Notes under the pieces: model-generated | What the model saw: the letters and a program-made list of their open reading frames with translations, nothing else | Told to the model about the DNA's origin: nothing | Databases searched by the model: none | Source: Channallabes apus | Lineage: Eukaryota; Chordata; Actinopteri; Siluriformes; Clariidae | Assembly (NCBI GenBank): GCA_030522415.1 | Contig: CM060131.1 | Location: 10,559,203-10,623,202 of the forward strand | Direction: 5' to 3' | DNA length: 64,000 nucleotides | Program-made: the position numbers and the translations under genes | In this document: piece after piece, positions 1-64,000 of the stretch | Numbering within the stretch: position 1 is the first letter of the stretch | Layout of the letters: the number at the start of each line of letters is the position of its first letter

Positions 1-554
1 GTAAATTTAAAAGCAGCAACAACAACATCCATGGAACAGATGCAGTGGGGCTTGTAGCAGATATAATAAACAGAACAAATATGGCTCCTGGTGATACATG
101 TAAAAATGTACCTATTGTATTGATTCTGTTTGTAATGTTTGATTATACTGTACCATTTAATAAGTCTAAGTTTTGAGTAATTACGTCTAACTGATGCCTT
201 CATATCTTAAAACATGGAAATTCTTATCTAAATATTCAAGTATGGTTGCCATCTTAGTTCTTTTGAAGAAAATTTAATTAACATTTACCGTATTACCAAA
301 ATTCATGCTCATATCTACACATCTGTGTTTTACGTTCACAGTGTATGTTGAAAAGATTTCATACTGCTTTTAATTTCTAGTTGAGTTTTAGTTTCATAGT
401 CCCACACAAGGTAATGGTACCAGACTCCACTTGTACTTTGGGTGGTACCAACAATGCTTCATCTTTTATATTTACAATACGATACGACATATGTTTAAAA
501 TTGATTGAAAGTAGAGAATTAGGACTGCAAGGAACATATAGGTACCTAACGTTT
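1..554. other. AT-rich single-copy DNA
   Basis: No recognisable gene, RNA or repeat family. The open frame beginning near 381 has no protein-like composition and no recognised motif, so I do not call it a gene. Confidence 0.5.
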
Positions 555-785
555 ATTCATTGTCTATACTGCTTTTGCTGTGGAGGGCTGCAGAGAACTG
601 GAGAATATCCAAGGGAAATCTGGGCACAAGGAATGGTGCCAACCCATTGCAGGCCACGAGCACACAATCACACATGACAAGAAATTCTGAAATTACAATC
701 AACTTATACTACCCTACATGTGTTCATAACCCCCACCTGTAGAATGGCAGTGCTCACCACTAAGCCACCATGCCACAATTAGTTG
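555..785 (-). repeat. Ancient SINE relic (GAAT-tail family)
   Basis: Read on the minus strand it keeps the order of the tRNA-headed SINE seen intact at 15649-16020: a head complementary to gtgctcaccactaagccacc, a middle matching the stretch before gcaggccacgagcacac, and a trace of the gggaaatctgggcac segment. Divergence is high and no target duplication is visible, so this is an old copy. Boundaries are approximate. Confidence 0.4.
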
Positions 786-910
786 CATCGATCCAGAAAT
801 CACCCAAAATCTCTCATTTGATTTCAAGCTGAAAAAAGACTCAACTTCCAGTTTCTCATGGAAGCTGACTCATTTCTCATTTTGCATAAGAAATCTTACA
901 TTTATAATCA

Positions 911-2242
911 GTTCCCTTTCAAACGCTACACTCGATGCTGCGTGAAAACACTATGGGAACATCTTGTTATGTTACCGGTTGTGATGCATGTGTGTAAAAC
1001 ACCCCAAATTTTGGCTTATATAACCTCGGTCGGGTGACGTCATCTGATGAGACGCACCTGCAGGTTATAAATAGGAGTGAACCGGAAACATTCCTCAGAT
1101 CTTTTGTCTTCACTGACAAGCCTAGTTGTGTTAAACGTGTTTGTGTTTAAACCAGCAAAATAAGAAAGTTTTAACTCACCGATATGGCAAAGTTTTAAAT
1201 GAGATGTCCCTCCGTGTGTGATAATCCATATCGGAGGGCGATCTCTACACTTTACTGCTTCGATTAAAGTGCTCGCGAGCTGTGAGAGACGGATTTAAAA
1301 CTCCTATCGCTCACGCCCTCGCGGGATCGGGAAATTCCTCTGTCCGCTCTCAAACACGCCCTGGCGCTTCTTGTGAATGGGCAAGGACATAAATCCTCTC
1401 TTGCTTCCGCGGAGATGGAAATAGCCTCGAAGCACTTGGAAAACATTAGACGGCAGTTTCTGTCGGGTGGCCGGTGGGCGGAGCCTCAACGACGCTCTCT
1501 CCCTTTTTCCTAGCAATCTCCATATGAGTTAACCCTTTCATGGAGTAAGCTGTATTAATCCCGTGTTTTTCCTGCCATCGACTTATTTATTTGTTTAAAT
1601 ATAGTTGATGTGGAAGCGCGGGGTGACGCCCAGGTAGAAGAGACGCTTCCAGGCTATCTCTCTCCTGGGACATCATCCTTCCTGAAAAGCTAAGACTTCC
1701 TTTCAAGCTGTGTAGACTTTCATCTCCCCTGGAGGGAAAAGCTTTTCAGGCAGCAGGTCAGGTTGGTGCTCCTTTGCACACCATGGCGGTTTTGCAGGCC
1801 TACCAGCTGAGATACTTGGGCACTGGCAGGGCTCTTCAAGATAGGGCGTATTGGAATCACGCCGGGCCACAGACTTGTCTCTTCGTGCAACAAAGCAGAC
1901 GGCTCATGCTATTGGCCGTTTTATGGCTGCGGTGGTTTTCGCGGAGAGGCACTTGTGGCTGAATCTCAGGCGCATCAAGGATAAGGATCGTGCATTCCTC
2001 CTTGATGCCCCTATCTCGCCTTCCGGTCTGTTTGGCGATGTAGGTTCATGAGGCGAAGTTATATGAACAAGCCTTCAGGAAATTCCTTCCCCGCCGTGCT
2101 CAAGAGTCGGGACTGTCGGCCACCCAGTCTCGACCGGGTCTGTCTCTTGCAAGGCGTGAAACACAAGGAGAGTGTTTTTGAGCCGGACACCCCCTCATAA
2201 AGATTGGGGTGCGCCGCGCAATCCACCTCAAGAGAGGTCAGT
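911..2242 (+). mobile_element. DIRS-like retroelement, 5' part (copy 1)
   Basis: DIRS elements are tyrosine-recombinase retrotransposons with inverted rather than direct terminal repeats. This segment begins with a terminal repeat (about 911-1165) whose landmarks (gttccctttcaaa, tatataacctcggt, gatgagacgcacctg, aaccagcaaaataagaaag) recur in inverted orientation at the right end of copy 2 (63660-63858) and in its left repeat (57465-57600). A leader and Gag-like remnants follow to about 2181. The element is cut off at about 2242, where Harbinger-like DNA starts; no reverse transcriptase or recombinase from this copy remains. Assignment rests on the shared repeats and on the recombinase and RNase H remnants of copy 2. 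Confidence 0.75.
1780..2181 (+). pseudogene. DIRS Gag-like protein remnant
   Basis: Two overlapping frames together look like the N-terminal (Gag-like) protein of fish DIRS elements. One frame reads ATDLSLRATK, then ERHLWLNL and DAPISPSGLFGD (about 1855-2045). After a frameshift near 2050 the reading continues with KFLPRRAQESGLSATQSRP and ends at a TGA at about 2181. The peptide SATQSRPGL recurs on the minus strand of copy 2 near 63190, confirming that both copies carried it. Gag is expected to be the structural protein of the retroelement particle. Frameshifts and the loss of the downstream half make this copy non-functional. I recognise the family by motif only. Confidence 0.6.
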
Positions 2243-3920
2243 TGTACCTTAACTTCTCTCTTAACGTTATGGCGCATTTCCCGAAATGTTCGTACACTAA
2301 GTACTGTATCTCTTAGGTAAATCACACATTCGTAAGGTTGGTCTGGACCAACCTTAACTCACTCTTAGCGTAGTTTCAGCTCGAGACGCTAGTCGCCGTC
2401 ACTGAACAGCAGTGCAGATTATGAAAGTCGTATTAATGATGGAATATACTGTAAGCCTGTTTAAGAATTTTATTTTATTTTATATCAGAACTAAAAGAGT
2501 GACTTTTAATTAGCCTATTTCATAATGTGACTAATGCATTAAAATTGGCAATCTCTTTTAATATTAAACAGGTGGCAAACAATTTGGCAGTGATACAGCG
2601 TGTTGTTGTGCTAAACCACTAAACCAAAGATGGCGCCGTCCGCGGAGCTGTGTGGGTCATGTACATTTTTCCTTTAGGAAAAACTTCAGCCCTTTTCATA
2701 TTTTGTACGAGGTGGCTATTTAAAAAAAAAAGGTTTCACCTTCCAAGGCAACAGATTATGGAGCTTCTTGACCTGCTCAGACCTGCGCTTGCCAGACCAA
2801 CGCATTGTACTTACACTCCCCGTCCCAATGTCCAGCTGCTTGCTGCTTTTTGTTTACAATATGTTTCATTGATCATTAGCCATCATTCATGACTGGATGG
2901 ACTTTTCTTTCGACACGTTTTATTTTATGATGAAATTTAATTTAGCTAAATGAGAAAATAAACTTGGGAGTTTCAAACCCCGCATCCATTTATTTTAATG
3001 TGATTGTAATGCTTTGTACATCTATGTGGTTTGACTCACTGTGAGATGCGGTGTTACTGTATACCCCTATCTCACCTGCTCGGTCTCGTGCTGTGGCCGT
3101 AAGTAGTGTTCATCATGATTCACCATGAGTTTTTGGCCTGTGATTATGTTTCCATCTTTCCACGTGAAAAATTAAACATGTTTAAATTTACATGTTAAAA
3201 TAAAATATATAATTTTTTTTTGGCGGACACTGCAGCATCTCACCGTGAGTCAAGCCGCATAGGTGAGTAGGGGTATTACTCACCGTGAGCCGCCTCGAGT
3301 GACCCGACGTTCCGCAAAGATCTGCAAGGTCCGCGAGCTTCCGCATGTTAAACATGTTTAATTTTTTGGCATGGAAAGATGGAAACGTAATCACGGCACC
3401 AAAACTCGCGCTGAATCTTGATGAACCGCTCTTACGACCACCGCGCGAAACCGTGTAGGTGAGATAGGGGTATTAAACCTGTACTCTGTCATCTCATCGT
3501 ATTCATTCCATAGTGCGCTATACAACCCCAACAAATGACATGATTCACATTGTTTCTGAAGCTGGTGAAGAGTGCTGTCAGCTGTTTGTCAATCCGCCAC
3601 TACAGGTTACGTGAAAATTTTAGCGACAGTTTACTGATAAGTTAACCCATGTCGAAATAAATGTTATTGGAACAATTTACTGCAATGTTTAATTTGCATA
3701 GAAAGTGCTGTCTTTCTTAACACTGTCATGCAAAAGGAGTGAAAAATCGATTCCTGAGCAACCGATGTCCGCTAATTCATGACCTTCACTGTAGACAGCG
3801 CCTTGTAATGTCGGATGTAAGAGGCAGCGACTTAAGCAGACTCTTAAGAGACAGTTCGAGAAACACATACTGTAGAAAGTAATCACTTTACATAAGATAT
3901 ATCTTAAGAGTCTTCTTAGC
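2243..3920. mobile_element. Harbinger-like non-autonomous transposon, copy A (truncated)
   Basis: Colinear with the complete copy B at 59452-61322 from the gtaccttaac motif (2244) to aagagtcttcttagc (about 3919). The terminal inverted repeat is missing at both ends: the left edge abuts DIRS DNA, and the right edge runs into unrelated sequence at about 3920. No transposase frame is present. It contains the same internal foldback module (3061-3473) as copy B. Relative to copy B, three TA dinucleotides (TACTGTA at 2302, 3055 and 3868) carry an extra 5 bp. Confidence 0.7.
3061..3473. repeat. Foldback module with 17-bp perfect inverted ends
   Basis: The ends atacccctatctcacct and aggtgagataggggtat are perfect inverse complements. 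Complementarity continues imperfectly for about 100 bp on each side: the left arm carries cgtttccatctttcc-like sequence and the right arm its complement ggaaagatggaaacgt. The central part holds a second copy of the aggtgag(ta)ggggtatt motif. Similar modules lie at 60375-60769 and, shortened, at 23172-23345 inside a Tc1-like element. It may be an independent MITE or a conserved part of the Harbinger-like family. Confidence 0.7.
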
Positions 3921-7216: not shown

Positions 7217-8355
7217 ACTTTGGGGTCGAGCAGTAGCTCTAAACACCTGCAAAACATTCCTGAGGCTTTTAAAAACTCCCAGCCTGGTTCATTACTCAAA
7301 ACTGCAATCATGGGTAAGACTGCCGACCTGACTGCTGTCCAGAAGGCCATCATTGACACCCTCAAGCAAGAGGGTAAGACACAGAAAGAAATTTCTGAAC
7401 GAATAGGCTGTTCCCAGAGTGCTGTATCAAGTCACCTCAGTGGGAAGTCTGTGGGAAGGAAAAAGTGTGGCAGAAAACGCTGCACAACGAGAAGAGGTGA
7501 CCGGGCCCTGAGGAAGATTGTGGAGAAGGACCGATTCCAGACCTTGGGGGACCTGCGGAAGCAGTGGACTGAGTCTGGAGTAGAAACATCCAGAGCCACC
7601 GTGTACAGGCGTGTGCAGGAAATGGGCTACAGGTTGCAAATTTTGCATGTCATTCGGAAATCAAGGTGCCAGAGTCTGGAGGAAGACTGGGGAGAGGGAA
7701 ATGCCAAAATGCCTGAAGTCCAGTGTCAAGTAGCCACAGTCAGTGATGGTCTGGGGTGCCATGTCAGCTGCTGGTGTTGGTCCACTGTGTTTTATCAAGG
7801 GCAGGGTCAATGCAGCTAGCTATCAGGAGATTTTGGAGCACTTCATGCTTCCATCTGCTGATAAGCTTTATGGAGATGAAGATTTCATTTTTCAGCACGA
7901 CCTGGCACCTGCTCACAGAGCCAAAACCACTGGTAAATGGTTTACTGACCATGGTATTACTGTGCTCAATTGGCCTGCCTACTCTCCTGACCTGAACCCC
8001 ATAGAGAATCTGTGGAATATTGTGAAGAGAAAGTTGAGAGACGCAAGACACAAGAATCTGCAAAAGGATTCCCGACCAAGTATTGAGTGCAGAACTGAAC
8101 ATAATTATTTGAAGGTTGACTTTTTTTGTATTAAAAACACTTTTCTTTTATTGGTCGGATGAAATATGCTAATTTCTTGAGATTTTGGGTTTTCATGAGC
8201 TGTATGCCACATCAATATTAAAACAATAAACGGCTTGAACTACTTCAGTTTGTGTGTAATTAATCTAAAATATATGAAAGTCTAATGTTTATCAGTACAT
8301 TACAGAAAATAATGAACTTCATCACAATATGCAAATTTTTTGAGAAGGACCTGTA
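7217..8355 (+). mobile_element. Tc1-like transposon with internal deletions (B)
   Basis: The right end finishes in ttttgagaaggacctgtat (about 8336-8355), which I recognise as a common fish Tc1-family terminus. The matching left inverted repeat is absent; similarity starts near 7217, just before the leader of the transposase frame. Non-coding 3' sequence (8087-8355) is long and AT-rich. Sequence decay is mild compared with copies A and C, suggesting a younger insertion. Confidence 0.85.
7310..8086 (+). pseudogene. Tc1-like transposase, broken
   Basis: The ATG at 7310 begins MGKTADLTAVQKAIIDTLKQ, the N-terminal paired-like DNA-binding region, with helix-turn-helix residues QKEISERIGCSQSAVSSHL. 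Reading is clean to about 7640, then joins directly to SFGNQGARVW in a new frame. Roughly 100-150 bp normally lying between these are missing, including the segment that should hold the first catalytic Asp. The second half (frame starting about 7743) keeps FQHDLAPAH (second Asp) and SPDLNPIENLW (Glu). A second deletion near 8050 removes most of the C-terminal tail, so only the end (TKY then stop at 8084-8086) remains, out of frame. It cannot encode an active enzyme. Confidence 0.85.
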
Positions 8356-18656: not shown

Positions 18657-18757
18657 CATGTACTGTATACAGTATGGATTGATGGATGGATGGATGGATG
18701 GATGGATAGATGGATAGATACTGTAGATGGACAGACAGACAGACAGACAGACACACA
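18599..18757. repeat. Compound GATA / GGAT / GACA microsatellite
   Basis: GATA units 18599-18655, GGAT units about 18674-18712, and GACA units about 18730-18752, followed by actttattgattcaaaagg. That last motif commonly borders such tetranucleotide arrays in fish and may be the 3' end of an old LINE. Confidence 0.95.
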
Positions 18758-20324: not shown

Positions 20325-20578
20325 ACGTTGCCTTAGGCAGCTAAGTTGTTGATTTGGTGGTCTGAGGATCTGGGTTTGATCCCTGCTGTTAGTGGTTTGC
20401 CATACCCCACCCTACCCAGCCACTGCATGCAATGCCAATTCCAAGTCTCGTTACAGTAGAAAAATTGGAGGGTTTTGTCCTCAGGAAGGGCATCTGACGT
20501 AAACCTGTGCCAAGTTGTTTGCAGATCGGATATTCTGTGGTGACCAGTTGCCGAGACCAACCAAAGAATGTTCATGAG
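20325..20578 (+). repeat. SINE with RTE-type 3' end
   Basis: A tRNA-like head with box B (gggtttgatccctg, near 20371) is followed by a body ending in gggcatctgacgtaaacctg and cagatcggatattctgtgg. That 3' part matches the second copy at 51735-51900 (minus) and resembles the RTE-type LINE ends of fish. TACAGTA at 20452 looks like an insertion into the family sequence. Confidence 0.55.
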
Positions 20579-21149: not shown

Positions 21150-21960
21150 ATATAACCATAGTTATTGGCACCCCGGATGTTAATACTCCAAGACAGCACT
21201 TATTTTGTCTGTTGAACCATTTTTTTGTACATTTCACCACATGTTTTGGGTCATTATCCTGCTGAAAGACCCAATGATCACCCATCTTCAGCTTTCTGAC
21301 AGAGGCCATCAGGGTTTGATTCAAAATGTGCTGGTATTTCAGAGAGTCCATTATGCCATGCACCCTAACCAGGTTCCCAAGGCCTTTGGAAGAGAAACAT
21401 GCCCACAGAATCACAGATCCTCCACCATATTACACAGTGGGCATATAGTGCTTTTCCCACATACTCATCTTTTGTTTTACACCAGTCACAGACAGTGTTT
21501 GTTGCCAAAAATCTCTATCTTAGTCTCATCCGACCACACAGTACTAGTTGAAGTCTCAGCAAACTCCAGCCATTTATGTTTGCTATTGTGTGTAAAAAAA
21601 AAGTTTTTTCCTTGCATGCCTCCCAAACAGCTTGTTGGCATGTAGATAGTGTCTGATGGTTGTTATGGAGACTTGGAACAATGAGATTTGGAGATTTTTT
21701 AACTTCTCTTGCTTTCCTATTGGGTACTCGTCCAGCCTTCTTTGTCGCGTATCCAGTTGTTTTAAACTTCTTAATGATTCCTCTGACTGTAGATATGTTT
21801 GAGTTTAGATGAGTATTGTCTTGTAGCCATTGCCTGACTGATGAAGGTCGACACACAACTGTCTTACTTGAATGGGGTGTTCTCTTGTCTTTCCCATGTT
21901 GAAGAGTGGGTAAGAGAAATAGGCCTCTGAGTCATGTCATATTTATACTACATGCTACTG
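21150..21960 (-). mobile_element. Tc1-like transposon, truncated (D)
   Basis: The minus strand carries a broken transposase: an N-terminal part with STVRGIIKKFKTTGYATKK (about 21790), a catalytic core with WACFSSKGLGNLVRVHGIMD (about 21340-21400) and FQQDNDPKH (second Asp, about 21240). After WFNRQNK (near 21210) the C-terminal third with the catalytic Glu is missing, and the sequence jumps to the terminus ggtgccaataact. The first Asp lies in a shifted frame near 21525. The 5' boundary near 21960 is uncertain. Confidence 0.75.
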
Positions 21961-22120
21961 GGCTGTATGTGAATATGAAATGATTCTGGCTCTCAGTTCG
22001 GGTATTTTACACGCCCTCCCTCACAAAGGACTGCTGCATGTTCTGACTCATAGTGCCACTTCACAGTCAACGTACTGTATGAGACAAATTAGTTATAAAC
22101 TTCCTACAGGAAGAATACAT

Positions 22121-23485
22121 ATACAGTGGAGAATTTTTTTTTTGATCTCCTGCAGATTTTCTAAATTTGACCACTTACAAATAAAGGAAGAGTCAAACAT
22201 TTTTTCATAAGTGTATTTTTAAGGAATTGAGACAGAATATCAACAAAAAATCCAGAAAATGTTTGTTCTGTGTCATTGTCATGCTGGAAGTCACATCCAC
22301 ACCCCATCTTCAGTGTTCTGGCTAAAGGAAAGGGCGTTCTCATCCAAGTTTTCACAATACATGGCCCCATCCATTGGCACCTTAATGTGGCAAAGTCAGT
22401 CCCTACCTTTACCAGAGAAACAGCCCCAAAACGTGGTGTTTCCACATCTGTGCTTGACTGAAGGGATGATGTTTTCATTGTCATATCAAACACATACCAA
22501 ACACAGCTAGTCGAGCTGATGACAAAGAGCTCAATTTTGGTATCATCTGACCACATCACTTTCTCCCAATTTTTCTCTTTCATTGGCAAACTTTACACGT
22601 TCCTGTGCACATGCTTTCTTAAGGAGGGCTATCTTATGGGCGCTACTGGATTTCAATCCACGGCGTCATATTCTGTTACCAGTGGTTTGTTTTGTTAATG
22701 TTATCCCAACTGCCTTGAGATCATTTACCAGCTCCTTTCATTTATTCCTGGGCTGATTCATCATTTTTCTCATGATCATCCTGACGCGAAATCTTGCTTG
22801 GAGCTCTAAACTTGGGCAATTGATGGTTTTTTGTAATTCTTCTATTTGCAAATAATCGTTCCAACTGTTGTTTCTTTCTCACTAAGCTGCTTGCTGATGT
22901 GTTGTAGCCCATTCCAGCCTTATACAGGTATACAGTCCTGTCCCTGACATCCTTTGACAGCTCTTTGGTCTTGCCCATGGTGGTGAGGTTTGAATGGAAG
23001 ATAGAGATTCCATGGACAGGTGTCTTTTATACATAAAATGAGTTGTTGTTAAGGCCACATTCTTAAATTGACAGGTCTAATCTGTGTACATGAGCACATA
23101 CCCAGTATGTGGAAGCCAGAATTATTCTTAGTTGGTAGATGATCAAATACTTACATCCCATCTCAGTTTCAAAGCGGCCGTAAGTATGGTTCATTGCAAT
23201 TCACGATGAGTTTTGGCATAATGACAACGTTTCCACTCTTTCCGCACAAATAATGTTTAATTTTTTGGCGGTCCTCGCAGAAGCTTACAAATCCTGCGTC
23301 TTACCACAAGTCAAACGACATACTGTAGGTGAGATAGGGGTATAATTTTACTCACTGGAATGCAATTTATAAAAAACTTTTTTTTAAATATATATATTTT
23401 TTTATATTCTGTCTCTATACTCTATCCTATAAAATTATAGACCCTTTATTTCTTTGCAAGTGGGCAAACCTTACAAAAGGTTGTG
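22121..23485 (-). mobile_element. Tc1-like transposon with long inverted repeats (E)
   Basis: The left end begins tacagtgga (22122), that is TA followed by CAG. Both ends carry a long inverted repeat of roughly 140-200 bp: 22121-22265 and 23346-23485 share complementary blocks (tattctgtctc against gagacagaata, agtgggcaaacc against ggtcaaatttag-like). Minus-strand transposase pieces are MGKTKELSKDVRDRTVYLY (N-terminus, 22978 downward), WSDDTKIELF (first Asp, about 22550) and FQHDND (second Asp, about 22285). The C-terminal part with the Glu is deleted. A foldback element interrupts the 5' side at 23172-23345. Confidence 0.85.
23172..23345. repeat. Foldback element fragment inside Tc1-like E
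   Basis: Matches the 3061-3473 module: cgatgagttttggc, cgtttccactctttccgc, aatgtttaattttttggcg, and the end ggtgagataggggtat (23328-23343). The left end is shortened. The right end carries TACTGTA (23321-23327) where the 3061-3473 copy has only TA, a direct example of the 5-bp insertion. Confidence 0.65.
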
Positions 23486-33949: not shown

Positions 33950-34066
33950 TATTGGCATCCTGTCCAGGGTGTACCCTGTCTCATGCCCTACTGTATGTCT
34001 CCTGGGATGGGCTCAGCCCCCCCGTGACCCTGCAGACAGGATAAAGTGGTATAAATGATGAGTGGT
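33950..34066 (+). repeat. SINE 3' fragment (GAAT-tail family)
   Basis: Matches the second half of the SINE: ggcatcctgtccagggtg, tctcctgggatgggctc, gacaggataaagtggtat. The head is missing. TACTGTA at 33989-33995 interrupts a place where family members read straight through a single TA. Confidence 0.7.
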
Positions 34067-36012: not shown

Positions 36013-39000
36013 ATTCAGGCCTGGAGGTGGGGCCCGATGGCGAGCGCCTGGTGGTCGGGCCTGCACCCATGGGGCCCGGCCGGGCACAGCCCGAAGAGGC
36101 AACGTGGGTCCCCCTTCCCATGGGCTCACCACCTGTAGGAGGGGCCAAAGAGGTCGGGTGCAGTGTGAGTTGGGCGGTGGCCGAAGACAGGGGCCTTGGC
36201 GGTCTGATCCTCGGCTGCAGAAGCTGGCTCTAGGGACGTGGAATGTCACCTCTCTGGCGGGGAAGGAGCCTGAGCTAGTGCGTGAGGTTGAGAAGTTCCG
36301 GCTAGATATAGTTGGACTCACCTCTACGCACAGCTTGAACTCTGGAACCAGTCTCCTTGAGAGGGGATGGACTCTCTTCTACTCTGGAGTTGCCCCCGGT
36401 GAGAGGCGCCGAGCAGGTGTGGGCATACTTATTGCCCCCCGGCTCGGGGCCTGTACATTGGGGTTCACCGCAGTGGACGAGAGGGTGGCCTCCCTCCGCG
36501 TTCGGGTGGGGGGACGAATCCTTACTGTTGTTTGCGCTTATGCGCCAAACAGCAGTTTGGAGTACCCGCCCTTTTTGGGGTCTCTAGAGGGGGCGCTAGA
36601 GGGCGTCCCTCCTGGGGACTCCATCGTTCTGTTGGGGGACTTCAATGCTCACGTGGGCAATTACAGTGAGATCTGGAAGGGCGTGATTGGGATGAACGGC
36701 CCCCCCGATCTGAACCAGAGCGGTGTTTTGTTATTGGACTTCTGTGCTCGTCACGGATTGTCCATAACGAACACCATGTTCAGGCATAAGGGTGTCCATA
36801 TGTGCACCTGGCACCAGGACACCCTAGGCCGCAGTTCGATGATCGACTTTGTGGTCGTGTCGTCGGACTTGCGGCCACATGTCTTGGACACTCGGGTGAA
36901 GAGAGGGGCGGAGTTGTCAACTGATCACCACCTGGTGGTGAGTTGGCTCCGTTGGCAGGGTAGGATGCCGGTCAGGCCTGGTAGACCCAAACGTATTGTG
37001 AGGGTCTGCTGGGAACGTCTGGCAGAGTCCCCTGTCAGGACGAGCTTCAACTCCCACCTCCGGCAAAGCTTCAACCACGTCCTGGGGGAGGTGGGGGACA
37101 TTGAGTCCGAATGGACTATGTTCCGCGCCTCCATTGTTGAGGCAGCCGACCGGAGCTGTGGCCGTAAGGTGGTCGGTGCCTGTCGCGGTGGCAACCCAAG
37201 AACCCGTTGGTGGACACCGGCGGTAAGGGATGCCATCAAGCTGAAGAAGGAGTCTTACCGGGCCTTTTTGGCTGGTGGCACTCCGGAGGCAGCTGATAGG
37301 TACCGGCAGGCCAAGCGGAACGCGGCTTCGGTGGTTGCTGAGGCAAAAACCCGGGCGTGGGAGGAGTTTGGGGAGGCCATGGAGAATGACTTCCAGACGG
37401 CTTCGAAGAGATTCTGGTCCACCATCCGGCGTCTCAGGAGGGGAAAGCAGTGCATGGTCAACACAGTGTATAGTGGGGATGGTGCGCTGCTGACCTCGAC
37501 TCGGGACGTTGTGGGTCGGTGGGGAGAGTACTTCGAAGACCTCCTTAATTCCACCAACATGCCTTCCGATGAGGAAGCAGAGTCTGGGGACGTAGAGGTG
37601 GACTCTTTCATCTCTGGGGCCGAGGTCGCCGAGGTGGTCAAAAAGCTCCGTGGTGGCGGCGCCCCGGGGGTGGATGAGATCCGCCCTGAGTTCCTCAAGG
37701 CTCTGGATGTTGTAGGGCTGTCATGGTTGACACGTCTCTGCAACATTGCATGGACATCGGGGACAGTGCCTCTGGACTGGCAAACCGGGGTGGTGGTCCC
37801 CCTCTTCAAGAAGGGGGACCGGAGAGTGTGTTCCAACTACAGAGGGATCACACTTCTCAGCCTCCCCGGGAAAGTCTATTCAGGGGTCCTGGAAAGGAGG
37901 GTCCGTCGGATAGTCGAACCTCGGATTCAGGAGGAGCAGTGTGGTTTTCGTCCGGGTCGCGGAACAGTGGACCAGCTCTTCACCCTTAGCAGGGTCCTGG
38001 AGGGGGCATGGGAGTTCGCCCAACCAGTCTACATGTGCTTTGTGGACTTGGAGAAGGCATTCGACCGTGTCCCTCGGGGAGTCCTGTGGGGGGTACTCCG
38101 GGAGTATGGGATATCGGATTCCCTGTTAAGGGCTGTCCGGTCCCTGTACAACCGGTGTCGGAGCTTGGTCCGCATTGCCGGTAGTAAGTCTGACCTGTTT
38201 CCGGTGAGAGTAGGACTCCGACAGGGCTGCCCTTTGTCACCGATCCTGTTCATAATTTTTATGGACAGGATTTCTAGGCGCAGCCAGGGCGTTGAGGGGG
38301 TACAGTTTGGTGGGCTCAGGATTGGGTCACTGCTTTTTGCAGATGACGTTGTTCTGTTGGCCTCATCACCCTGTGACCTACAGCTCTCACTGGATAGGTT
38401 CGCAGCCGAGTGTGAAGCGGCTGGGATGAGAATCAGCACCTCCAAATCTGAGGCCATGGTCCTCAGCCGGAAAAGGGTGGAGTGCCCTCTCAGGGTTGGG
38501 AGTGAGATCCTGCCCCAAGTGGAGGAGTTTAAGTATCTCGGGATCTTGTTCACGAGTGAGGGTAAAATGGAGCGGGAGATTGACAGGCGGATTGGGTCAG
38601 CGTCTGCAGTGATGCGGGCTCTGTATCGGTCCGTCGTGGTGAAGAAGGAGCTGAGTCAAAAGGCAAAGCTCTCAATTTACCGGTCGATCTACGTTCCTAC
38701 CCTCACCTATGGTCATGAGCTGTGGGTAGTGACCGAAAGAACAAGATCGCGAATACAAGCGGCCGAAATGGGTTTCCTCCGCAGGGTGTCTGGGCTCTCC
38801 CTTAGAGATAGGGTGAGAAGCTCAGTCATCCGGGAGGGGCTCAGAGTAGAGCCGCTGCTCCTCCGCATCGAGAGGAGCCAGATGAGGTGGCTTGGGCATC
38901 TATTTAGGATGCCCCCTGGACGCCTCCCTTGTGAGGTGTTCCGGACACGCCCCACCGGAAAGAGACCCCGGGGAAGACTCAGGACACGCTGGAGGGACTA

Positions 39001-39154
39001 TGTCTCTCGGCTGGCCTGGGAACGCCTTGGGATCCCCCCGGAAGAGCTGGAAGAAGTGGCCAGGGAGAGGGAAGTCTGGGCATCCCTGCTGAAGCTGCTG
39101 CCCCCGCGACCCGACCTCGGATAAGCGGAAGAAGATGGATGGATGGATGGATGG
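36013..39154 (+). mobile_element. Rex3-like LINE (RTE-related), near full length
   Basis: About 3.1 kb, ending in cggataagcggaagaagatg and a GATG/GGAT repeat tail, the tail type of Rex3. A perfect 14-bp target duplication (aaatttttttactg) flanks it at 35999-36012 and 39155-39168. The 5' region (36013-36103) is GC-rich leader. The coding region is uninterrupted and much more GC-rich than its surroundings. All this indicates a recent insertion by target-primed reverse transcription. Confidence 0.92.
36104..39124 (+). CDS. Rex3-like LINE endonuclease / reverse transcriptase, 1006 codons
   Basis: One open frame encodes both enzymes needed for LINE movement. Residues about 43-285: apurinic-type endonuclease, with TWNVTSL (45-51), [10 protein letters not shown] (176-185), SMIDFV (245-250) and STDHHLV (272-278). 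The motif normally contributing a Glu after the first strand reads GLTSTHS here. Residues about 540-800: reverse transcriptase with [10 protein letters not shown] (647-656, first Asp), [10 protein letters not shown] (704-713) and LFADDVVLL (744-752, catalytic pair). The C-terminal region (about 880-1006) has the [15 protein letters not shown] and [14 protein letters not shown] blocks typical of the Rex3/RTE group. The exact start is uncertain: similarity to the family is clear from about residue 40, so the first 40 residues may be leader. No stop or frameshift, so it could be active. Confidence 0.9.
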
Positions 39155-41099: not shown

Positions 41100-42140
41100 A
41101 CATATTCACTTTTATTTCTTTGTATAGCGCTTTTAACAATTGACATTATCGCAAAACAGCTTTACACAATCAGAATAATTCTTTAAGTTTTATTAAATGT
41201 GAGGGGCGGCGCGGTGGTATAGTGGTTAGCACTGTCGCCTTGCACCTCCAGGGTCTGGGTTCGATTCCCCGGCCAGGTTCGATTCCCGTCTCTGTGTGCA
41301 TGGAGTTTGCATGTTCTCCCCGTGCTTGGTGGGTTTCCTCCGGGTACTCCGGTTTCCTCCCACAGTCCAGAGATATGCAGGTTAGGCTAATTGGCGTTCT
41401 CAAATTGCCCGTAGTGTGTGATTGGGTGTGTGAGTGTGTGTATGTGTGTGTGCCCTGCGATGGATTGGCACCCTGTCCAGGGTGTACCCTGCCTAGTGCC
41501 CGAAGTCTCCTAGGCTAGGCTCCAGGCTCCAGGGATAGGCTCCAGGCCCCCCGCGACCCTGAACACAGGATTAAGCGGTATAGAAAATGAATGAATGAAT
41601 ATTAAATGTGAATGTGTACCTGTATGAATCAAAATGATAGGATTGTCCATGATGAGCAAGCCGAGGACGACGGCGACAGTGGCAAGGAAAAACTTCCTGA
41701 GATGGTTATAGGAAGAAACCTTGAGAGGAACCAGACTCAACAGGCAACCCATCCTCATTTGGGTGATAACGCATAGCAGGGATTGATCTGCATCATACTG
41801 TGTGAGCCTGGAAGTTCAGTATAACAGGAGATGTGTTTAAGTTAGAACTGAATCCAGTTCGTTATTGGAGGCTCAGGTAGACTGTAGGAAACTCCAGTCC
41901 TGAACTATCGAGTGAGAACAGCTGTCTGCATCAGCCGAGGACAGGACAGACAGAGAAGTGGAACCGTCCCCAGTCACCACACGGAGAGGGGCTATACAGT
42001 AGATACAGTATGCAGTAATCTACAGTAAGTGAAACAGTTGCTGTTGACATGTCTCCGCTGCTTATGCCCTGTAAAGCGGCTAATCTGAAGGTAGGCTGGT
42101 CTTCATGAGAGCCAGCGTCAGGATCAAAGTAATGTACTGT
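41100..42140. repeat. Dispersed repeat of unknown class, split by a SINE
   Basis: Starts with ttgtatagcgcttttaacaa and gcaaaacagctttacacaa (41115-41170), continues after the SINE at about 41612, then gcaaggaaaaacttcctgag and ggaagaaaccttgagaggaa (41670-41735). The 5' part recurs at 19338-19425. I recognise it as a common fish repeat but not its class. Several TACAGTA/TACTGTA heptamers cluster at 41994-42140. Confidence 0.55.
41203..41599 (+). mobile_element. tRNA-derived SINE, full length, with 11-12-bp target duplication
   Basis: Head gcgcggtggtatagtggtta, box B ggttcgattccccgg (about 41259), body with a CA/TG-rich segment, and tail GAATGAATGAAT. The target tattaaatgtga is present at 41191-41202 and 41600-41611. 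It interrupts the 41100-42140 repeat. A small internal duplication (ggctccaggctccagggataggctcc region, 41515-41545) is visible near the 3' end. Confidence 0.92.
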
Positions 42141-42144: not shown

Positions 42145-42258
42145 TGTATACACACACACACAACTACGGGCAATTACAGTAGGCAACACCAGTTAGCCTA
42201 TTCTGGAGATGCAAGGCGACAATGCTAACCACTAAGCTACAGTACAGTGCCGCCCCAT
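42145..42258 (-). repeat. Internally deleted SINE (GAAT-tail family)
   Basis: Minus-strand order: head complementary to gctaaccactaagctac, then a jump to the middle (actacgggcaatta). Most of the interior is gone. TACAGTA at 42175-42181 lies where the family has ttttagg, again a 5-bp gain at TA. Confidence 0.65.
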
Positions 42259-48514: not shown

Positions 48515-49061
48515 AATATTGCAAATCCAACATCAAAACTGAACTAACTATTTACGGCATTTTTGCTGTTTAAACTAAATCTGTTCACACTACATCCAAA
48601 TAATACACAGCCTAGTTTCACAGAAAGAATCTTTTATAACCCAGACCTGCTAATACTGCCCATGTTAGATTTTCCTTCCTTTTGGATACTTTTCGAGTAA
48701 ATGATCTTGTTTATTGCAGCTTTCCAGTATATATTTTTTTCTTTTGACTTGAAGGAATTATTTAGTGGTACTTGTTGTTAGAAAAGCAGTATATATTCTT
48801 TTACTTGTCTCAGGAGTAGCAATTCGTGATTTCACTGCCATAACCTGGATTTGGACATTATGTCATACTGTAGGTCATCGATTTTCAGAGCTTTCACAGC
48901 TTAGTTTGCTTGCTCTGGTCAGAATTACAGTACTTGATAAGTTTCTAAACTTGTAGAGTTTATCCCCTTGGTTCAGTTTCTTTTCACACAGAGAAAAATC
49001 CAAGCGTACCAAAACATGTCGCTTCTTAGTGATCAGTTGTATAAAAAAAGAAAATACAGTG
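48515..49061. other. AT-rich single-copy DNA
   Basis: No gene or repeat family recognised. Confidence 0.4.
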
Positions 49062-49535: not shown

Positions 49536-51734
49536 TACTTTTTTCTGTAAAATTAGCAAGGAACATCGCTAATGACACTCATTTGAGCGCATACTAACGG
49601 AATCACTGCCGTAAAGTAAAACAAACAAACAAATGAACCTGCACTTTACCTTTGAAAAGAATTGTGACAGAGCAGAGTTTCTGTGTAGAGCAGAGTGTGT
49701 GTGTGTGTGTGTGTGCACGTAATTTGACACAAGGTGCCGGATCTCTCTCTCTCTATCTCTTTCTCTCTCTCTCTCTCGCCTTTAGCGTGCACCCGCTCTC
49801 TGCTTCACACACACAAACTAAAGGCGAGAGATAGAGTGTGTGAACCGGCATGGTGTCAAATTCTGCGTGCACACACATAATGACGGGCTGAGGGAGAAAA
49901 TGGATTTTTAACCTCTGTAATGAGACTTTCTTTTGCTTTACAGGCACGCACACACGTGTGTTATAAGGAACAGTACACACGCGCTTCAGGGCCAGTTCTA
50001 GACAATCACATATGGGGGGGGCAGTCAGAAAAGTGAAGGGGGCATCATGTGTACACATCATGTTCGAGCAATGTTTTTTCCCCCTGTGCTTATAGTAACA
50101 GTATTATTCTCGCTGAATTGTGGTGTTAGCTGCGTCCAAAGCCTGGAGAAGTTGATTGCACTTTTTTCAGGCCTCTACCTTCAGACCTGTCTAACCTTGG
50201 CATCCCACTTAAAGACTAAGCTCCTTCTGGTATAGCTCTTAAGGTCACTAAGGCACGCAAACCCGCTGACCACAATAAGGTGGCAATAAATTAAACAAAA
50301 TAAAATAAAATATCCTTAATCCAGATTTTATCATTCACGACATAACATTTATCTTAGCTGGATGGTCTAATTCTCAAAAACGTTTAACCTAAAGTAAGAC
50401 TTAAAACACTATAACTAGAATATTTACAAAACAGAAAGGTTGTCTTATGAATAATAAAAAAATAAGTTAAAGCAGATGGGCTATAGTGCAGATCATATTA
50501 TGTTTTTTTTTTTAAATATATATATTTTTTTATTTATTTTATAGAAAATGAACAGCTCTCTTCTCTCCAATCCACTCTTGCTACGTCTTGACTTATTTGC
50601 CTACAGACGGTGATTGGATGTTTACCGAGGGCTCAGGGGAGGAGTGTGTGTGTGTGTGCGCACGCGTGCGTGTGTGTGTGCGTGCACTGCAGCCTGTGTA
50701 TGAATACACAACGGAGAGACTTGAGGGAAATCAAATAACGTATTGTGTAGTGTCCCTTTTTCGGCTGATTTTTCCACTACGCAGTTCATTTTATCAACTT
50801 GTAATATATTCATTTTGTGAGGATATTAACATGTGCTTTCTCAAGGGGCCAAGACATTTATTTGAAGGTGCGCTGCCCCCTCTTGCCCCCCGTAGAGCCC
50901 CCTCTTGCCCCCGCCTGACGTGCTTACAAACACAAAATAAAATGGGTTTTACACATATGCACACATGGTCACAGTGTTATACAGTAGTAAACAATACACT
51001 CGTGCACGGGTTTTGAGGTTTCATTGTACAGACAGAAGACCCTGTGCTGTGGAATACATGTTTCTGTGACATGAGTGAGCCATTGGAAGATGGAGGTTGT
51101 TAACCTATCCGGGTTGGTCATTAGCCAGGTCATTGTTTATTACATTGCTTGATTGATATTATTTAGGCAAATAATATAGTTCAAAAATAAATCTGGAAAG
51201 CAACATGTTGATGTACTGGCGTCACCAAAGGTGCATATCAAAACAATACAATAGGTGTGCTGCATTTATCCTTCTAAACTGTGACATGCTCATCAGTCAA
51301 AGGTATCTCTGAAGATCAATCAGATATGCCCATTTGGTTCAGTATGTTTCCTCACCAGGAGGACCGCACAAGAGTTCACTACTGTACACTACTGTACTAC
51401 TGTATGTGCTTTGGATCAAGACTGCTTCCTTCCGTGGTTGTTTTGGTCCACCAGAAAATGAACTAAAGTTTGATTTAATTGGACAACAGTCTGTAGCTGT
51501 GTAAGCATCCATAGTTGGTAGGGAAAAAACAAACAAACTTCAGGAGAATGGGAATTTCAGGGATGCGTTTCAGTTCAGAAATATGAATAGATGTTTTGAG
51601 ATCACATTTGCAAAAAGTTTTGGAGTAATTTATTTCATTTGATCCCAATGTCATATAATCAATACTGGTCCGAAGTAATTTCATCAACATAATTATAACT
51701 TTTGAATACAACTTGATACCACTGGTGTTCCAAT
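49532..51734. other. Low-complexity and repeat-like DNA, no gene
   Basis: 49800-49990 and 50850-50930 look element-derived: cagggccagttctagac at 49987 has the CAGGG start common to hAT ends, and tgccccctcttgcccccc occurs in near-duplicate at 50874-50915. I found no matching opposite terminus. GT-rich sequence lies at 50645-50690. Three TACTGTA copies sit within 25 bp at 51381-51405. Confidence 0.35.
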
Positions 51735-54375: not shown

Positions 54376-56424
54376 GAAAACTGTTAAAGCGGCAAAAACC
54401 AAACATTACTCTGACTTAATTTTAGCAAACTGTCATAAGCCTCACGTTTTATTTCAGTCTTTTAATGCAATTCTTAATGGTCCCCAAATTGCCAGTTTCG
54501 AAAGCTCATATAAGGTGTGTGAAAACTTTCTCCAGTTTTTTATTGATAAGGTTTCTTCTACAAGGGCTCTTATCACATCTCCTGCATGTAACCCATCGAT
54601 TTCCATTTCTGTCTCTAGCTCTGCTGTTTTTAACCAGTTTGAGCCCATCTCTCTTTCCTTTCTGTTAGAGATTATTAATATTATGAAGCCTGCAGGATCT
54701 CCTGCTGATCCCATTCCTCCACATCTCTTTAAAGAGTTGGCTCCCATTCTAGGTCCTAAAGTTTTAAATATTATAAATAGCAGCTTGGGATCTGGGGTGG
54801 TACCCACCCATTTTAAACATGCAGTTGTGCAGCCTTTGTTAAAAAAACCTAATCTTGATCCGTCTGTGTTGTCTAATTACAGACCAATCTCTAAGCTACC
54901 ATTTCTGTCTAAGATTCTGGAGAAGGTAGTTTATACACAGCTAATAAGTTATCTTGGTGAGCATGGAATGCTTGAGGTTTTTCAGTCTGGTTTCAAGGCT
55001 CTTCACAGTACTGAAACAGCTCTGTTAATAGTCTTAAACGACATTTATCGTATTACTGATTCTGGTGACTCTGTGATTCTTCTGCTGCTTGATTTAACAG
55101 CTGCCTTTGATACAGTAGACCATGACATTCTTCTGTCACGCTTAGAACACTGGGTGGGAATTAGGGGGACAGTTCTAGACTGGTTTAGATCCTATCTTAT
55201 TGATAGAACTTTTTCTGTTAGCCTTGGAGATCTTGAGTCATCATCGGCTCCTCTTACATATGGGGTTCCACAGGGGTCTATCCTTGGACCCCTTCTTTTC
55301 TCATTGTATTTGCTGCCGCTCGGCTGTATCCTGAGAAATCATGGCATCTCCTTTCACTGCTATGCAGATGACAGTCAAATTTATCTCCCGTTAAAACAGA
55401 AGGAAGGCTACCCTGTCAAGGCACTGTTAACATGTCTAGATGATATAAAAGCATGGTTAGCCCAAAATGTTTTAAATTTTAATGATAAAAAGACAGAGGT
55501 TTTGGTATTCGGTCCTGGTGCCAGGGGTAAAGTTCCACCTCTGGATTTAGGAGATTTGGGGCAGTATGTTAAACCTACAGCGTCGAATTTAGGGGTTATT
55601 TTTGATCATGGCCTTAAATTTGACAAACAGATTAGTGCTGTGGTTCGGTCCAGTTTCTTTCAGTTAAGGCAATTGGCAAAACTTAAACCTGTTTTGTCCT
55701 TTAGGCTGTTTGAAATAACCATCCATGCTTTCATCACCACTCGCATTGATTACTGCAATGCTCTCTACTTTGGAGTTTCTCAGGCAGTATTACATCGGCT
55801 TCAGCTGATCCAAAACTCAGCTGCTCAACTATTAACGTCCACGCGTAAAAGAGAACATATCTCTCCAGTTCTGGCTTCTCTTCACTGGCTCCCGGTACAG
55901 TACCGAATAAATTTTATAATTCTCTTGTTCAAGTTTAAATGTGTACATGGCCTTGCCCCTCCCTACCTCTCTGATCTGCTCCAGCCCTATGCCCCACCCC
56001 GGTCTCTCAGATCATCAGATAAACATTTGCTGATGGTACCCAAGACCAAATGCAAGCGCAGGGGTGATCGGGCATTTTCTGTGGCAGCTCCTAAATTATT
56101 GAATGACCTACTGTACCATTAACCATTCGTGAGGTCACATCATTGAGGGTGTTTAAGACTAGTCTTAAAACTCACATGTTTTCTCTGGCATTTAAACCAA
56201 CATGAGATGTTAATTTTATATATTGCTTGATATGCTTGTGATTGTGATTTTAATTATGTTCTTCTTTTATTATTTTATAAATTGTTTTATTTATTTTTAT
56301 TATTATCTTGTATTTATTTTATTTTATTAGATTACTGTTATTATTATTATTTTTAATGTGAAGCACTTTGGGACATTCTTTTTGTTAAAGTGCTATACAA
56401 ATAAATATGAGTTGAGTTGAGTTA
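54376..56424 (+). mobile_element. L2-type LINE, 5'-truncated
   Basis: Retains the reverse transcriptase and the full 3' end: gtgaagcactttgggacatt (56359), gtgctatacaaataaa (56390), and a TTGAG-type repeat tail (56410-56424). The endonuclease and 5' end are missing; coding similarity begins close to 54376. Decay is modest, suggesting a moderately recent copy. Confidence 0.88.
54378..56120 (+). pseudogene. L2-type LINE reverse transcriptase, one late frameshift
   Basis: The frame is open from the truncation point (no true start) to a stop at about 56120. Landmarks: NYRPISKLPFLSKILEKVV, LLDLTAAFDTVDHDILL (first Asp), TYGVPQGSILGPLLFSLYL, and HCYADDSQIYLPL (catalytic pair, near 55360). The thumb and C-terminal blocks TRIDYCNALYFG and LHWLPVQYRINFIILLFKFK follow. 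The stop is premature: at 56109 the sequence TACTGTA adds 5 bp, and if 56111-56115 is ignored the frame runs on for about 30 residues of the expected C-terminus to a stop at about 56205. Without its endonuclease half the copy is inactive in any case. Confidence 0.88.
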
Positions 56425-57344: not shown

Positions 57345-57674
57345 ACGTCTCGGGTTACTTTGCTGTAACCCTGTTCCCTGAAAAGGCGGGAACGAGATAC
57401 TGCGTGAAAACGCTATGGGAAACATCTTGTCATGTTGCCGGTTGTGAAGCATGTGTGTATAAACACACCAAATTTTGGCCTATATAACCTCGGTCAGGTG
57501 ATGTCATCTGATGAGACGCACCTGGAGGGTTATAAATAGGAGTGAGCCAGAACCATTCCTCAGATTGATTTGTCTGAACGGACGTCTGGTCACGTAGGCA
57601 GTGCGGCATTGGGATGCAGCATCTCGTTCCCGCCTTTTCAGGGAACAGGGTTACAGCAAAGTAACCCGAGACGT
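57345..57674. repeat. 59-bp near-perfect inverted repeat at the DIRS end
   Basis: 57345-57403 and 57616-57674 are inverse complements over 59 bp with one mismatch (around ctcgttcccgccttttcag and gggaacagggttacagc). The 212-bp spacer holds the left terminal repeat. DIRS elements carry an internal complementary region copied from their termini, and this pair fits that arrangement. The block after it (57674-57725) also repeats the start of copy 1. Confidence 0.85.
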
Positions 57675-59440: not shown

Positions 59441-59451
59441 GAAATCACCTG

Positions 59452-61322
59452 GGCCCGGTTTCTCGAAAGCTTCTTATCTCTAAGTAGTTCTTAAGTCGTA
59501 CCTTAACCTCTCTCTTAACTTTATGGCGCATTTCTCAAAACGTTCTTACGCTAAGTATCTCTTAGCTAAGTCAGACGTTCGTAAGGTTGGTCTGGACCAA
59601 CCTTAACTCATACTTAGCGTAGTTTCAGCTCAAGACGCTAGTGGCCGCCCCTGAGCAGCGGTCTTTATAAACCAGCGGTGTATGTAAACACATTATGGCA
59701 CGTTATCAAAGTCGTATTAATGATGGAATATACTGTAGACCTGTTTAAGAATATTATTTTATTTGATATCAGAACTAATAGAGTGACTTTTAATTAGCCT
59801 ATTTCATAATGTGACTAAAGCATTAAAATTGCCAATCACAATTAATATTAAACAGGTGGCGAACAATTAGGCAGCGAGTGTGGTGTTGTGTTAAACTGAA
59901 GACGGCGCGGTCCGTGGAGCCGTGTGGGTCATGTACATGTTTCCTTTAGACAAAACTTCAGCCCTTTTCATATTTTCCTCGTGGTCGTTATTAAAAAATA
60001 TTTAAAATAAAAGTTTTGCCTTCCACGGCAACAGATTATGGAGCTTCTTGAGCTGCTCAGACCTGCGCGTGCCAGACCAACGCGTCGTACAGTACTTACT
60101 GTACTTACTGTACTGTACACTCCCCGTCCCGATGTCCAGCTGCTCGCTGCTTTTTGTTTAAAATATGTTTCATTCATCATTAGCCATTATCCATGAATTT
60201 ATGGGTTTTTCTTTTGACACGTTTTATTTTTATGAAATTTGATTTAGTTAAATGAGAAAATCACCATTGGAGTTTCAAACCCCGCATCCATTCATGTTTC
60301 TGGGTGATTGTAATGTTTAATACCCCTACAGTATTCACCTATGTGGTTTGGCTCGCTGTGAGGTGCGGTGTGTTATACCCCTATCTCACCTGCACGGTCT
60401 CGCGCTGTGGCCGTAGGCTTGATCATGATTCACCCCGAGTTTTGCGCTGTGATTACGTTTCCATCTTTCCGCGTGAAAAATTCAACGTTGCAGACTTTGC
60501 AGAACGTCATGGAACGTTAAAGGAACGTCGTGGGCAATCGCGGCAGCTCACGGAGATGAGTCCGGCCACACAGGTGAAAGAGGGGTATTAGGCACCGTGA
60601 TCCGCCTCGAGTGACCGGCGCCCGACGGTCCGCGAAGATCTGCCAGGTCCGCGAGCTTCCGCATGTTTATTTTTTTTGCGTGGTAAAAAGGAAACGTAAT
60701 AACAGCACCAAAACTCGCGCCGAATCATAATGAACCGCACTTACGGCCCCGCGTGTGAGATAGGAGTATTAAACCTCCACCCTGTCATCTCATCGTATTC
60801 ATTCCATAAGTGCGCTATACAACCCCAACAACTGACACTTCACATTGTTTCTGAAGCTGGTGAAGTGTGTATCAGCTGTTTGTCCATCAACTATGATTGG
60901 ATACCCGGTTCGTTTCACGGCCACATGTTACATGAAAATATTATATATTATATTATTATATTAATTAATATTAATTTATATATATGTCTATTATGACATG
61001 TTATTGTTAAGTTAACACATGTCGAAATAAACGCTATTAAAAGAATTTAGTGCAATGTTTAATTTGCATAGAAAGTGCCGTCTTTCTTAACACTGTCATG
61101 CAAAAGGAGTGAAAAATCGATTCCTGTGCCACCGATGTCAGCTAATTCAGGACCTTCACTGTAGACAGCGCCGCGTAACGTCGGACGTAAGAGGCAGCGA
61201 CTTAAGAAGACTCCTAAGAGACAGTTCGAGAAATACACTTAGAAAAGTTATCACTTAACGTAAGATATATCTTAAGAGTCTTCTTAGCGCGCGAATAGTG
61301 TGCGTTATCGAGAAACCGGGCC
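59452..61322. mobile_element. Harbinger-like non-autonomous transposon, complete (copy B)
   Basis: Termini are 15-bp perfect inverted repeats, GGCCCGGTTTCTCGA at 59452 and its complement ending at 61322, flanked by CTG on both sides (59449-59451 and 61323-61325). The joined target reads aaatcacctggttctta, close to the CACCWGGT-centred target I recall for zebrafish Harbinger3 elements. No transposase is encoded. The interior contains a foldback module (60375-60769) and near-terminal copies of cttaag-rich sequence. It sits inside DIRS copy 2 and splits its polymerase region. Confidence 0.75.
60375..60769. repeat. Foldback module, second copy
   Basis: Homologous to 3061-3473: begins atacccctatctcacctg and ends gtgagataggagtat, with arms containing cgtttccatctttccgcg and its complement-like counterpart near 60690. 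The position within the Harbinger-like element is the same in both copies, so the module predates their separation. Confidence 0.7.
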
Positions 61323-61439
61323 CTGGTTCTTAGCCACAACTTGAAATGCTCTCATGTGCAGAAGGCCCAAAGGTGTCACCGTGGATACAGCTGCCATGAG
61401 AGCTAGGATCTCTGAAAGTGATGGACACTGTAGATGCGG

Positions 61440-62060: not shown

Positions 62061-62099
62061 GGCACTTACAGTCACTTTCAGGTCTAGCTTGTTTTCCTT

Positions 62100-62880
62100 G
62101 AGGGTGTTGAGAATGGGTTCGACACGAGCGGGAGACAGCTGTGCCTGCTTACGATCGAATCCCATATGGCACCCAATGTGTTATCCTCTGAACATGAAAG
62201 AGCACGCTTTCGTGGCATTGGGTCTCAATCCTGAGAAACAGAGATGAGCTAGGACGACATGCTGATGTCGAAGCGCTACAGTAGCTACCGGATGCCCTGG
62301 GACTCTCGTAAGAGCCAGGACTAAATCCATACATTTGGTATATGTGCGGGTGAGCTAGACCAATGGAAGGACCTGATACTGGTAAGCTTCGCCCCCGAAA
62401 GCGAACCTCAGGAACCTCCTGTGTTGTGGCAATATTTCTGTATGAAAGTAAGCGTCCTTAAATCGATTGTCAGAAATCAATCGCTTGGTAGGATTTGAGA
62501 GCAATCACTTTGACAGTCAACATTTGAAGCTGTATTTATTGATTTTCAGATAGCGGAAGAGCCTGCAAAATCTGAAAAATTGGACGCAACCCCCGTTCCT
62601 CTTGGAAACCAAGAAATACCGACTGTAGTAGCCTGACACTCACTGTCTGGTAGGGGAACATGTTCCATGGCCCCATTCCCCAGCAGCTTCTGTCAGCAGA
62701 TGCGCACTTTCCGGTTTCATGGAAGTGGAGACCATGCCATTGAAAACATGGAGGGAGAAGTGAGAACTGAATCCTGTAGTTTCTCTCTCCAGTGCTTAGT
62801 ACCCAAGGAGATATACTTGGCAGTAGCTTCAACGATGCCAGTTTCTCAGAAAAGGGCAAAAGTCTCGGCGGCTTGGTTAA
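62100..62880 (-). pseudogene. DIRS reverse transcriptase, N-terminal and palm pieces
   Basis: On the minus strand, SPWVLSTGERNYRIQFSLLP (about 62810-62750) and EERGLRPIFQILQ (about 62610-62575) are the entry region of DIRS polymerases. Further on, in shifting frames, the DNA near 62460-62300 reads like FLTIDL (catalytic Asp motif) followed by the Leu/Pro-Phe-Gly region and TKCMDLVLAL. The second catalytic motif (YLDD in the family) is not found before the unknown insertion at about 62060. Multiple frameshifts. Confidence 0.7.
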
Positions 62881-63079
62881 ACGGGGGAGATGTTAGATGT
62901 TCAGCATCCTGAAACATGGCAGGAACAAAACAAAGAACTAACAGCCTATTGGAGACTGGTGTTGCCCGAAACACCAGTGGTGCCGGAGCAAGAACACCAA
63001 CCTCCTGGGGGTGCCAGGGAGAACACTTCATTCATTTGAAAGGAATTCTGGGTGCCTCTCCCTATTAGGGGGGGCCACC

Positions 63080-63240
63080 CCCATTTTGTATAAATTTTTT
63101 TTATCAGTCTGACCTCTTTGGGGCGGATAGTGCAACGCGGCGCACCCCAATCTTTCCCAATCAGAGTCAGACCCGGTCGAGACTGGGTGGCCGACAATCC
63201 CGACTCTTGAGCACGGCTGGGAGGGAATTTCCCAAAAGCT
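63080..63240 (-). pseudogene. DIRS Gag-like remnant
   Basis: On the minus strand it reads AQESGLSATQSRPGLTL, the same block as at 2090-2150 in copy 1, then GAPRCTIRPKEV. Only the end of the Gag-like frame survives; the ATDLSLRATK-type block upstream is missing, so this copy also carries an internal deletion relative to copy 1. Confidence 0.6.
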
Positions 63241-64000
63241 TGTTCGCTTATAGGAAGTATAAGCTTTCCACGAAGGATGATTTCCCAGGAGAGAGATTGC
63301 CTGTGAAGCGTCTCTTCTATCTGGGCGTCATCATATAACCCCGCGCTTCCACATCAACTATATCTAAATAAATAATTAAGTTGATGGCAGGAAAAACACG
63401 GGATTAATACAGCTTATTCCATGAAAGGGTTAACTCATATGGAAATAGCTAAGAAAGGTATCCGCGGAAGCAAGAGAGGAATTCCCGTGATGAGAACGCG
63501 AAAGAAAGGAGCTTTCCTCCATCTCCCGCAGCTCTGTCAGATGCACGAGTTTTAAGCCAGGAATGCGCGGCGGCTCGAAGCTTCTCAAGTAATGCGAGGC
63601 GCGCACAGCACTTAACCGAAGCAGTAGAGATCGCCCTCCGATATGGATTATCACACACGGAGGGATATCTAGTTAAACTCCGCCATATTGGTGAGTTAAA
63701 CACTTTCTTATTTTGCTGGTTTAAACACAGACACGCTCACAACAAGGTGAAGACAAAGAATCTGAGGAATGGTCCTGGCTCACTGCTATTTATAACGTTC
63801 CAGGTGCGTCTCATCAGATGAGACCGAGGTTATATAGGCCAAAATTTAGTGTGCGTGAAAAAATTATGAACATTTTTATATTATTGCATGAACTACAAAT
63901 AAAATCCTTTAAAATACTGTTTATCTGTAACTTGGTCAGAAAGAATACCCAGAAAAATCTGTTTCTTTGCGGAATACTTGTAGTTAAATTAAATTTTAGA

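Follow-up and report, generated by a model that had tools for sequence, protein, structure and literature searches.

Excess TACTGTA and TACAGTA words in the genome of Channallabes apus as probable excision footprints of Tc1-type transposons

The heptamers TACTGTA and TACAGTA (together TACWGTA) are far commoner in the genome of the clariid fish Channallabes apus than its composition predicts, and we consider it very probable that the excess consists of excision footprints of Tc1-type cut-and-paste transposons with CAG ends. Our starting point is a 64,000-nt stretch of DNA (C28:10559203-10623202, contig CM060131.1 of assembly GCA_030522415.1), here called the window, in a genome of 1,164,683,209 bp (1.165 Gb) in 93 contigs. 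An earlier note on this stretch had counted about 40 TACTGTA and about 30 TACAGTA by hand, had expected about a dozen for both together, and had read the words as Tc1-type excision scars. The exact counts are 44 and 34, or 78 in all, against the 11.05 given by a trinucleotide-based Markov model (z = 20), so that some 11 of the window's heptamers are expected to be due to chance. The reading itself finds support in the excess of the word, in 5-bp insertions, in a target preference and in a resident CAG-ended element.

The excess is sharp. TACWGTA is the only strongly raised word of the form TA-N3-TA, the next such word in the window reaching a z of 3.1. A preset sample of 20 x 10 kb, taken at position 10,000,001 of C1-C20 and chosen before any reading, holds 178 heptamers against 35.7 expected (z 23.8); this total includes overlapping words, while a per-locus tally that skips overlaps sums to 173. 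Genome-wide there are 489,833 + 489,770 = 979,603 heptamers, or 0.84 per kb. The control word TAGTCTA/TAGACTA, in which the two TAs stay in place and the letters between them are rearranged, occurs 41,237 + 41,543 = 82,780 times over both strands, so that in the comparison with shuffled equivalents that the earlier note had proposed, TACWGTA is 11.8 times commoner. At the model rate of the preset sample, the genome-wide excess over background comes to about 771,700 (~0.77 million). A possible 4-nt footprint, TACATGTA, is weakly raised, at 24 against 12.35 in both-strand counts of the preset sample.

That the heptamers arise by insertion at TA is seen where repeat copies with and without them can be aligned. 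In a partner test, the flanks of TANNNTA words or of random TA sites outside low complexity were spliced around a single TA and set against other copies of the repeats, over a 288-kb set that takes in L001-L008, loci picked for containing TACTGTATACTGTA. A partner that aligned well existed for 15 of the 258 TACWGTA examined, and a partner 5 bp shorter was favoured in 8 of these 15, as against 6/210 other TANNNTA and 4/246 random sites (10/456 for the controls together; Fisher p 4.3e-9). In all-against-all repeat alignments, the top 5-bp class is CAGTA, whose 11 insertions fall in 11 different contexts; the second class also counts 11, but from 5 contexts, and the other listed classes have at most 5. 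The scar share in the accompanying gap-length table (13/53) was computed for 5-bp gaps and applies to that length alone.

A single TA in a high-copy short interspersed nuclear element (SINE) permits the same comparison across the genome. Among 35,052 exact-match copies, 74 carry an insertion of 1-12 bp at this TA and 34,978 are uninserted. The 30 five-bp inserts comprise 16 CTGTA, 9 CAGTA, 3 GGATA, 1 CAGTG and 1 CTCTA, making CWGTA 25 of 30; the GGATA inserts are a local duplication, and CAGTG and CTCTA are each one base off the scar. At a non-TA control point 4 bases away, the 37 inserts, 6 of them 5 bp long, include no CWGTA (0/37; Fisher p 1.5e-5), a few copies being common to the two lists. 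Taken with the rank of CAGTA in the repeat alignments, this bears out the preference for CAG or CTG in 5-bp insertions at TA. T and A both appear as the middle base, in a T:A ratio of 16:9 at the SINE site (p 0.23) and of 44:34 across the window (p 0.31). Some less frequent inserts at this TA of the SINE (TA seven times; GTA, CGTA and CCTGTA once each) look like imprecise footprints, from which the fidelity of repair might be measurable.

Individual sites in the window (plus strand, unless stated) differ in how closely they fit the gain of exactly 5 bp that had been claimed for several of them. The gain is clean at TA for the TACTGTA scar at 2302-2308, whose paralogue near 59556 has TA alone. 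It fits at three further TACTGTA sites, each accompanied by one or two additional small differences close by, and these are better called probable scars: 3055-3061, in a repeat resembling a miniature inverted-repeat transposable element (MITE), whose counterpart at 60374 shows TA and a difference of 2 bp; 3868-3874, matched at 61240 by a copy with TA, two more small indels lying in the vicinity; and 23321-23327, at a MITE-like end, where L026:8314-8350 is 5 bp shorter with one base different and the copy at 3456 has TA by eye. A TACAGTA at 60327-60333, also at a MITE-like end, is a probable scar by the same token, its partner at 3439-3478 having a bare TA plus a 1-bp difference. Among SINE copies, the TACTGTA scar at 33989-33995 shows the 5-bp gap against many members, of which L011:5610 has a bare TA and most others GA, and the TACAGTA at 42175-42181 is a weakly supported scar, with the 5-bp gap and TT in place of TA in its L013 partner and no gap in its L021 partner. 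The gain claimed at 20452 did not hold up, identity there being ~71% with 8-bp gaps. A different kind of evidence comes from a long interspersed nuclear element (LINE), where a TACTGTA scar at 56109-56115 breaks the reverse-transcriptase frame: all six relatives given to tblastn (6 of 120 listed) switch frame there. Not every heptamer is a scar, for besides the unsupported site at 20452, the TACAGTA words at 55111-55117 and 55896-55902 are coding and lie within unbroken frame matches.

The sites also carry the mark of a target preference. The flanks of 140 isolated heptamers from the preset sample favour A at -3, Y at -2 and A at -1, mirrored on the other side, with z 7.1 against all TA and 7.35 against other TANNNTA; the window alone gives P values of 0.0013 and 0.00015. 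Up to a target score of 5, the scar rate climbs with the score, starting at 0.37-0.46 and reaching 3.57. For Sleeping Beauty, the corresponding preference is labelled AYATATRT. The target preference of the zebrafish element ZB, ATATATAT with a central TA, is described as similar to those of Sleeping Beauty and Bari (PMC7913693).

A plausible kind of author for such scars is resident in the genome. At L017:2977-4600, in the preset sample, lies an element of 1.62 kb whose inverted ends, perfect over 24 bp, start with CAG and are bordered by TA on either side. Its open 340-amino-acid frame contains HTH_SB, HTH_Tnp_Tc3_2 and DDE_3 and gives a match to the catalytic domain of Sleeping Beauty (5cr4, E 8.9e-84); judged by its sequence, this is an intact Sleeping Beauty-like Tc1 element. 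TA and CAG ends recur at 6 of 12 further transposase loci, and elements with the CAG ends that the earlier note would have sought are thus present in the genome. The window itself holds two relics of Tc1-type transposase genes located by tblastn, one at 7653-8120 (DDE_3 on 7743-8162) and one at 21208-22485 on the minus strand, as its broken reading frames indicate.

A search of the genome for DDE_3 gave 38,815 first-look candidates, of which 150 were scored. Eighteen of the scored places, L041 among them, are near-identical at 69.9 bits and mostly have a 344-amino-acid open frame; by this likeness they appear to be a recently spread Tc1-type family. The L041 family was considered as the source of the scars and set aside, since no clear CAG could be made out at its outer ends. 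On C11:30954847-38383625, many transposase matches of near-equal score are crowded together, six copies having a common 162-amino-acid frame with one TAG, and segmental duplication could account for the crowding.

In the 264 kb made up of the window and the preset sample (256 heptamers), tblastn finds 14 Tc1 coding loci, 18 before four were dropped because the longest frames of L030 and L031, used as queries, were by eye not Tc1. About 209 heptamers above expectation thus face 14 coding loci, a ratio of ~15 to 1 that leaves non-coding elements outside the count and allows that one element may jump many times. The earlier suggestion that excisions far outnumber surviving insertions is upheld in these terms.

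The process we envisage would begin with insertion of an element at a TA, which is duplicated, with the preference A-Y-A-TA-T-R-T that the flanks display here. The transposase would then excise the element with a 3-nt stagger, as described for Sleeping Beauty, leaving TA-CAG and CTG-TA ends; Sleeping Beauty nicks three bases inside the element, and the 3-nt overhangs at the donor site are sealed by end joining (PMC7827188). The outer bases of the two ends would pair, and because CAG and CTG mismatch in the middle, repair could settle on either word, TA-CAG-TA or TA-CTG-TA, for a net gain of 5 bp. Such footprint products are what we observe; the cutting and the repair we infer. The element would move to another TA, at times one within an older scar, and repetition of the cycle in the germline would build up the ~0.77 million heptamers by which the 1.165-Gb genome exceeds background, a number far above that of the surviving Tc1 coding copies.

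Several observations weigh against this account or fit it imperfectly. At the top target score (6), the scar rate is down to 1.1. Five of the 15 TACWGTA that could be aligned also have a partner carrying the full word. At the SINE site, 25 of 35,052 copies bear a scar, far below the mean of ~1% of TAs, which may reflect young copies together with a poor target context. Neighbouring heptamer pairs within 15 bp number 24 against 10.2 in a target-weighted simulation, an excess not foreseen by a simple model (the count within 7 bp, 10 against 6.6, is not significant); the clustering could stem from local re-insertion, hot spots or small duplications. In the one assembly available, no element-bearing allele of any scar was seen.

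Clusters of this kind are plain in the window. Four heptamers, including a nested TACTGTACTGTA, occupy 60088-60117, where the partner repeat is shorter and has none of the four; an adjacent TACTGTA-TACAGTA lies beside a GATA array at 18661-18674, with no clear empty partner for 18668; and three-heptamer clusters lie at 41995-42027 and 51380-51404. The nested form TACWGTACWGTA occurs eight times in the 264 kb.

The alternative that fares best, itself improbable in our judgment, is that the footprints come mostly from Tigger/pogo-type elements or their MITEs, which likewise duplicate TA and have CAG ends, and not from Tc1 proper. The scar by itself does not tell such families from Tc1. A CAG-starting end at 49059, which we take to be Tigger-like, adjoins TA, and a small CAG-ended element beginning TACAGTA lies at L019:6758-6950. 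Footprints of the pogo-type element Passer are 0-4 bp long (PMC9976928). Against this origin, the flank preference equals that reported for the Tc1-like elements ZB, Sleeping Beauty and Bari (PMC7913693), and the intact element found here is Sleeping Beauty-like.

The same small L019 element is the one known example for a second alternative, that the heptamers are the ends of surviving small elements beginning TACAGTA. It explains 2 of 256 heptamers, and the flanks make the general case highly implausible. Outer flanks are nearly unshared, any one 8-base flank word adjoining at most 3 of the 256. A 12-base flank matches another at 10 or more positions for 37 of 256, by eye mostly through neighbouring heptamers, simple repeats and chance, with two clear shared-flank families: L019 6758/6944 and 2447/59731. 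In the latter, the heptamer at 2447-2453 is common to two copies of one repeat, the same word standing at 59731-59737, and is therefore older than their split. For most sites the flanks rule out surviving MITE ends as a source, the inner flank not being common among copies.

Finally, composition bias or a selected binding motif can over-represent a short word without insertion, and a binding site could have unshared outer flanks, yet this too has next to no likelihood, since either cause would also lift the one-mismatch neighbours (over both strands of window and sample, the 20 together number 970 against 914 expected, the heptamer 256 against 46.7), reordering the letters lowers the count ~12-fold, and the length difference between repeat copies at TA is exactly 5 bp, insertion evidence that rules the cause out except for the background fifth.

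If the heptamers are Tc1-type excision footprints, the small surplus of one-mismatch neighbours can be read as their decay. It corresponds to a mean divergence of ~4% per base and by hand calculation lies less than two standard errors from zero, and therefore fits "young" and gives no age. On balance we favour, with some reserve, a picture of heavy Tc1-type traffic in which about 1 in 100 TAs bears a canonical scar and recorded excisions are ~10x the surviving coding loci, the scars being young on average and locally clustered and forming a readable clock and map, which ordinary repeat annotation would miss, of that traffic and of the local re-insertion within it. The history of transposons is as a rule reconstructed from copies still in place; here a 7-base word allows the departures to be counted, and the count has built-in checks in CWG against other trinucleotides, in target preference and in decay into one-mismatch neighbours. 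This opens excision rate, age, local hopping and the fidelity of repair to testing wherever a genome has CAG-ended Tc1 elements. As a 5-bp insertion, each scar is of a size to shift a reading frame, and ~0.77 million of them would contribute small indels on a large scale; they can also confound motif searches and repeat alignment.

The window has other repeats of note. A LINE at 36104-39124 has an unbroken 1006-amino-acid frame with endonuclease and reverse transcriptase, and is a young copy, as it is 90% identical to its closest relative among the matches listed. Among the best 120 of 732 relatives of this frame, the species-named ones are all fish, except for one record labelled Vibrio parahaemolyticus. 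The frame contains zero heptamers, and with few TAs there, this is uninformative as dating evidence. A short element at 57345-57674 has 59-bp inverted arms, 98% complementary, with 212 nt between them.

The excision mechanism is already known; what is new is the scale and the ratio. In the open PMC literature, as far as the accessible text goes, a genome-wide account of Tc1 scars in a fish was not found, which does not prove its absence; Sleeping Beauty footprints and rice excision sites were. On a mouse genome of 2.73 Gb, the mouse count of these words gives ~0.11 heptamers per kb, against 0.84 per kb here. That count exceeds 300,000 and comes from a study in which TACAGTA and TACTGTA are the consensus Sleeping Beauty excision footprints (PMC4378557). 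Sleeping Beauty thus leaves at TA exactly the words seen here, from a transposon introduced into mouse tumours or HeLa cells, whereas ours are resident in a natural genome (PMC4378557, PMC3432063). ZB, native to zebrafish, is likewise Tc1-like and prefers ATATATAT with a central TA; its footprints, of 0-3 bp, were reported from donor plasmids in human cells, unlike the resident genomic words described here (PMC7913693). Near in approach is work on rice, in which excision traces of resident DNA transposons were, as here, read from genome sequence (PMC4423477). Of 94 putative excisions in rice, 8 were perfect and the rest had deletions or filler, and Mariner insertions outnumbered excisions by 2.6:1 and 2.8:1 (PMC4423477). 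In C. apus, unlike rice, one precise product dominates, and the traces exceed the surviving coding loci.

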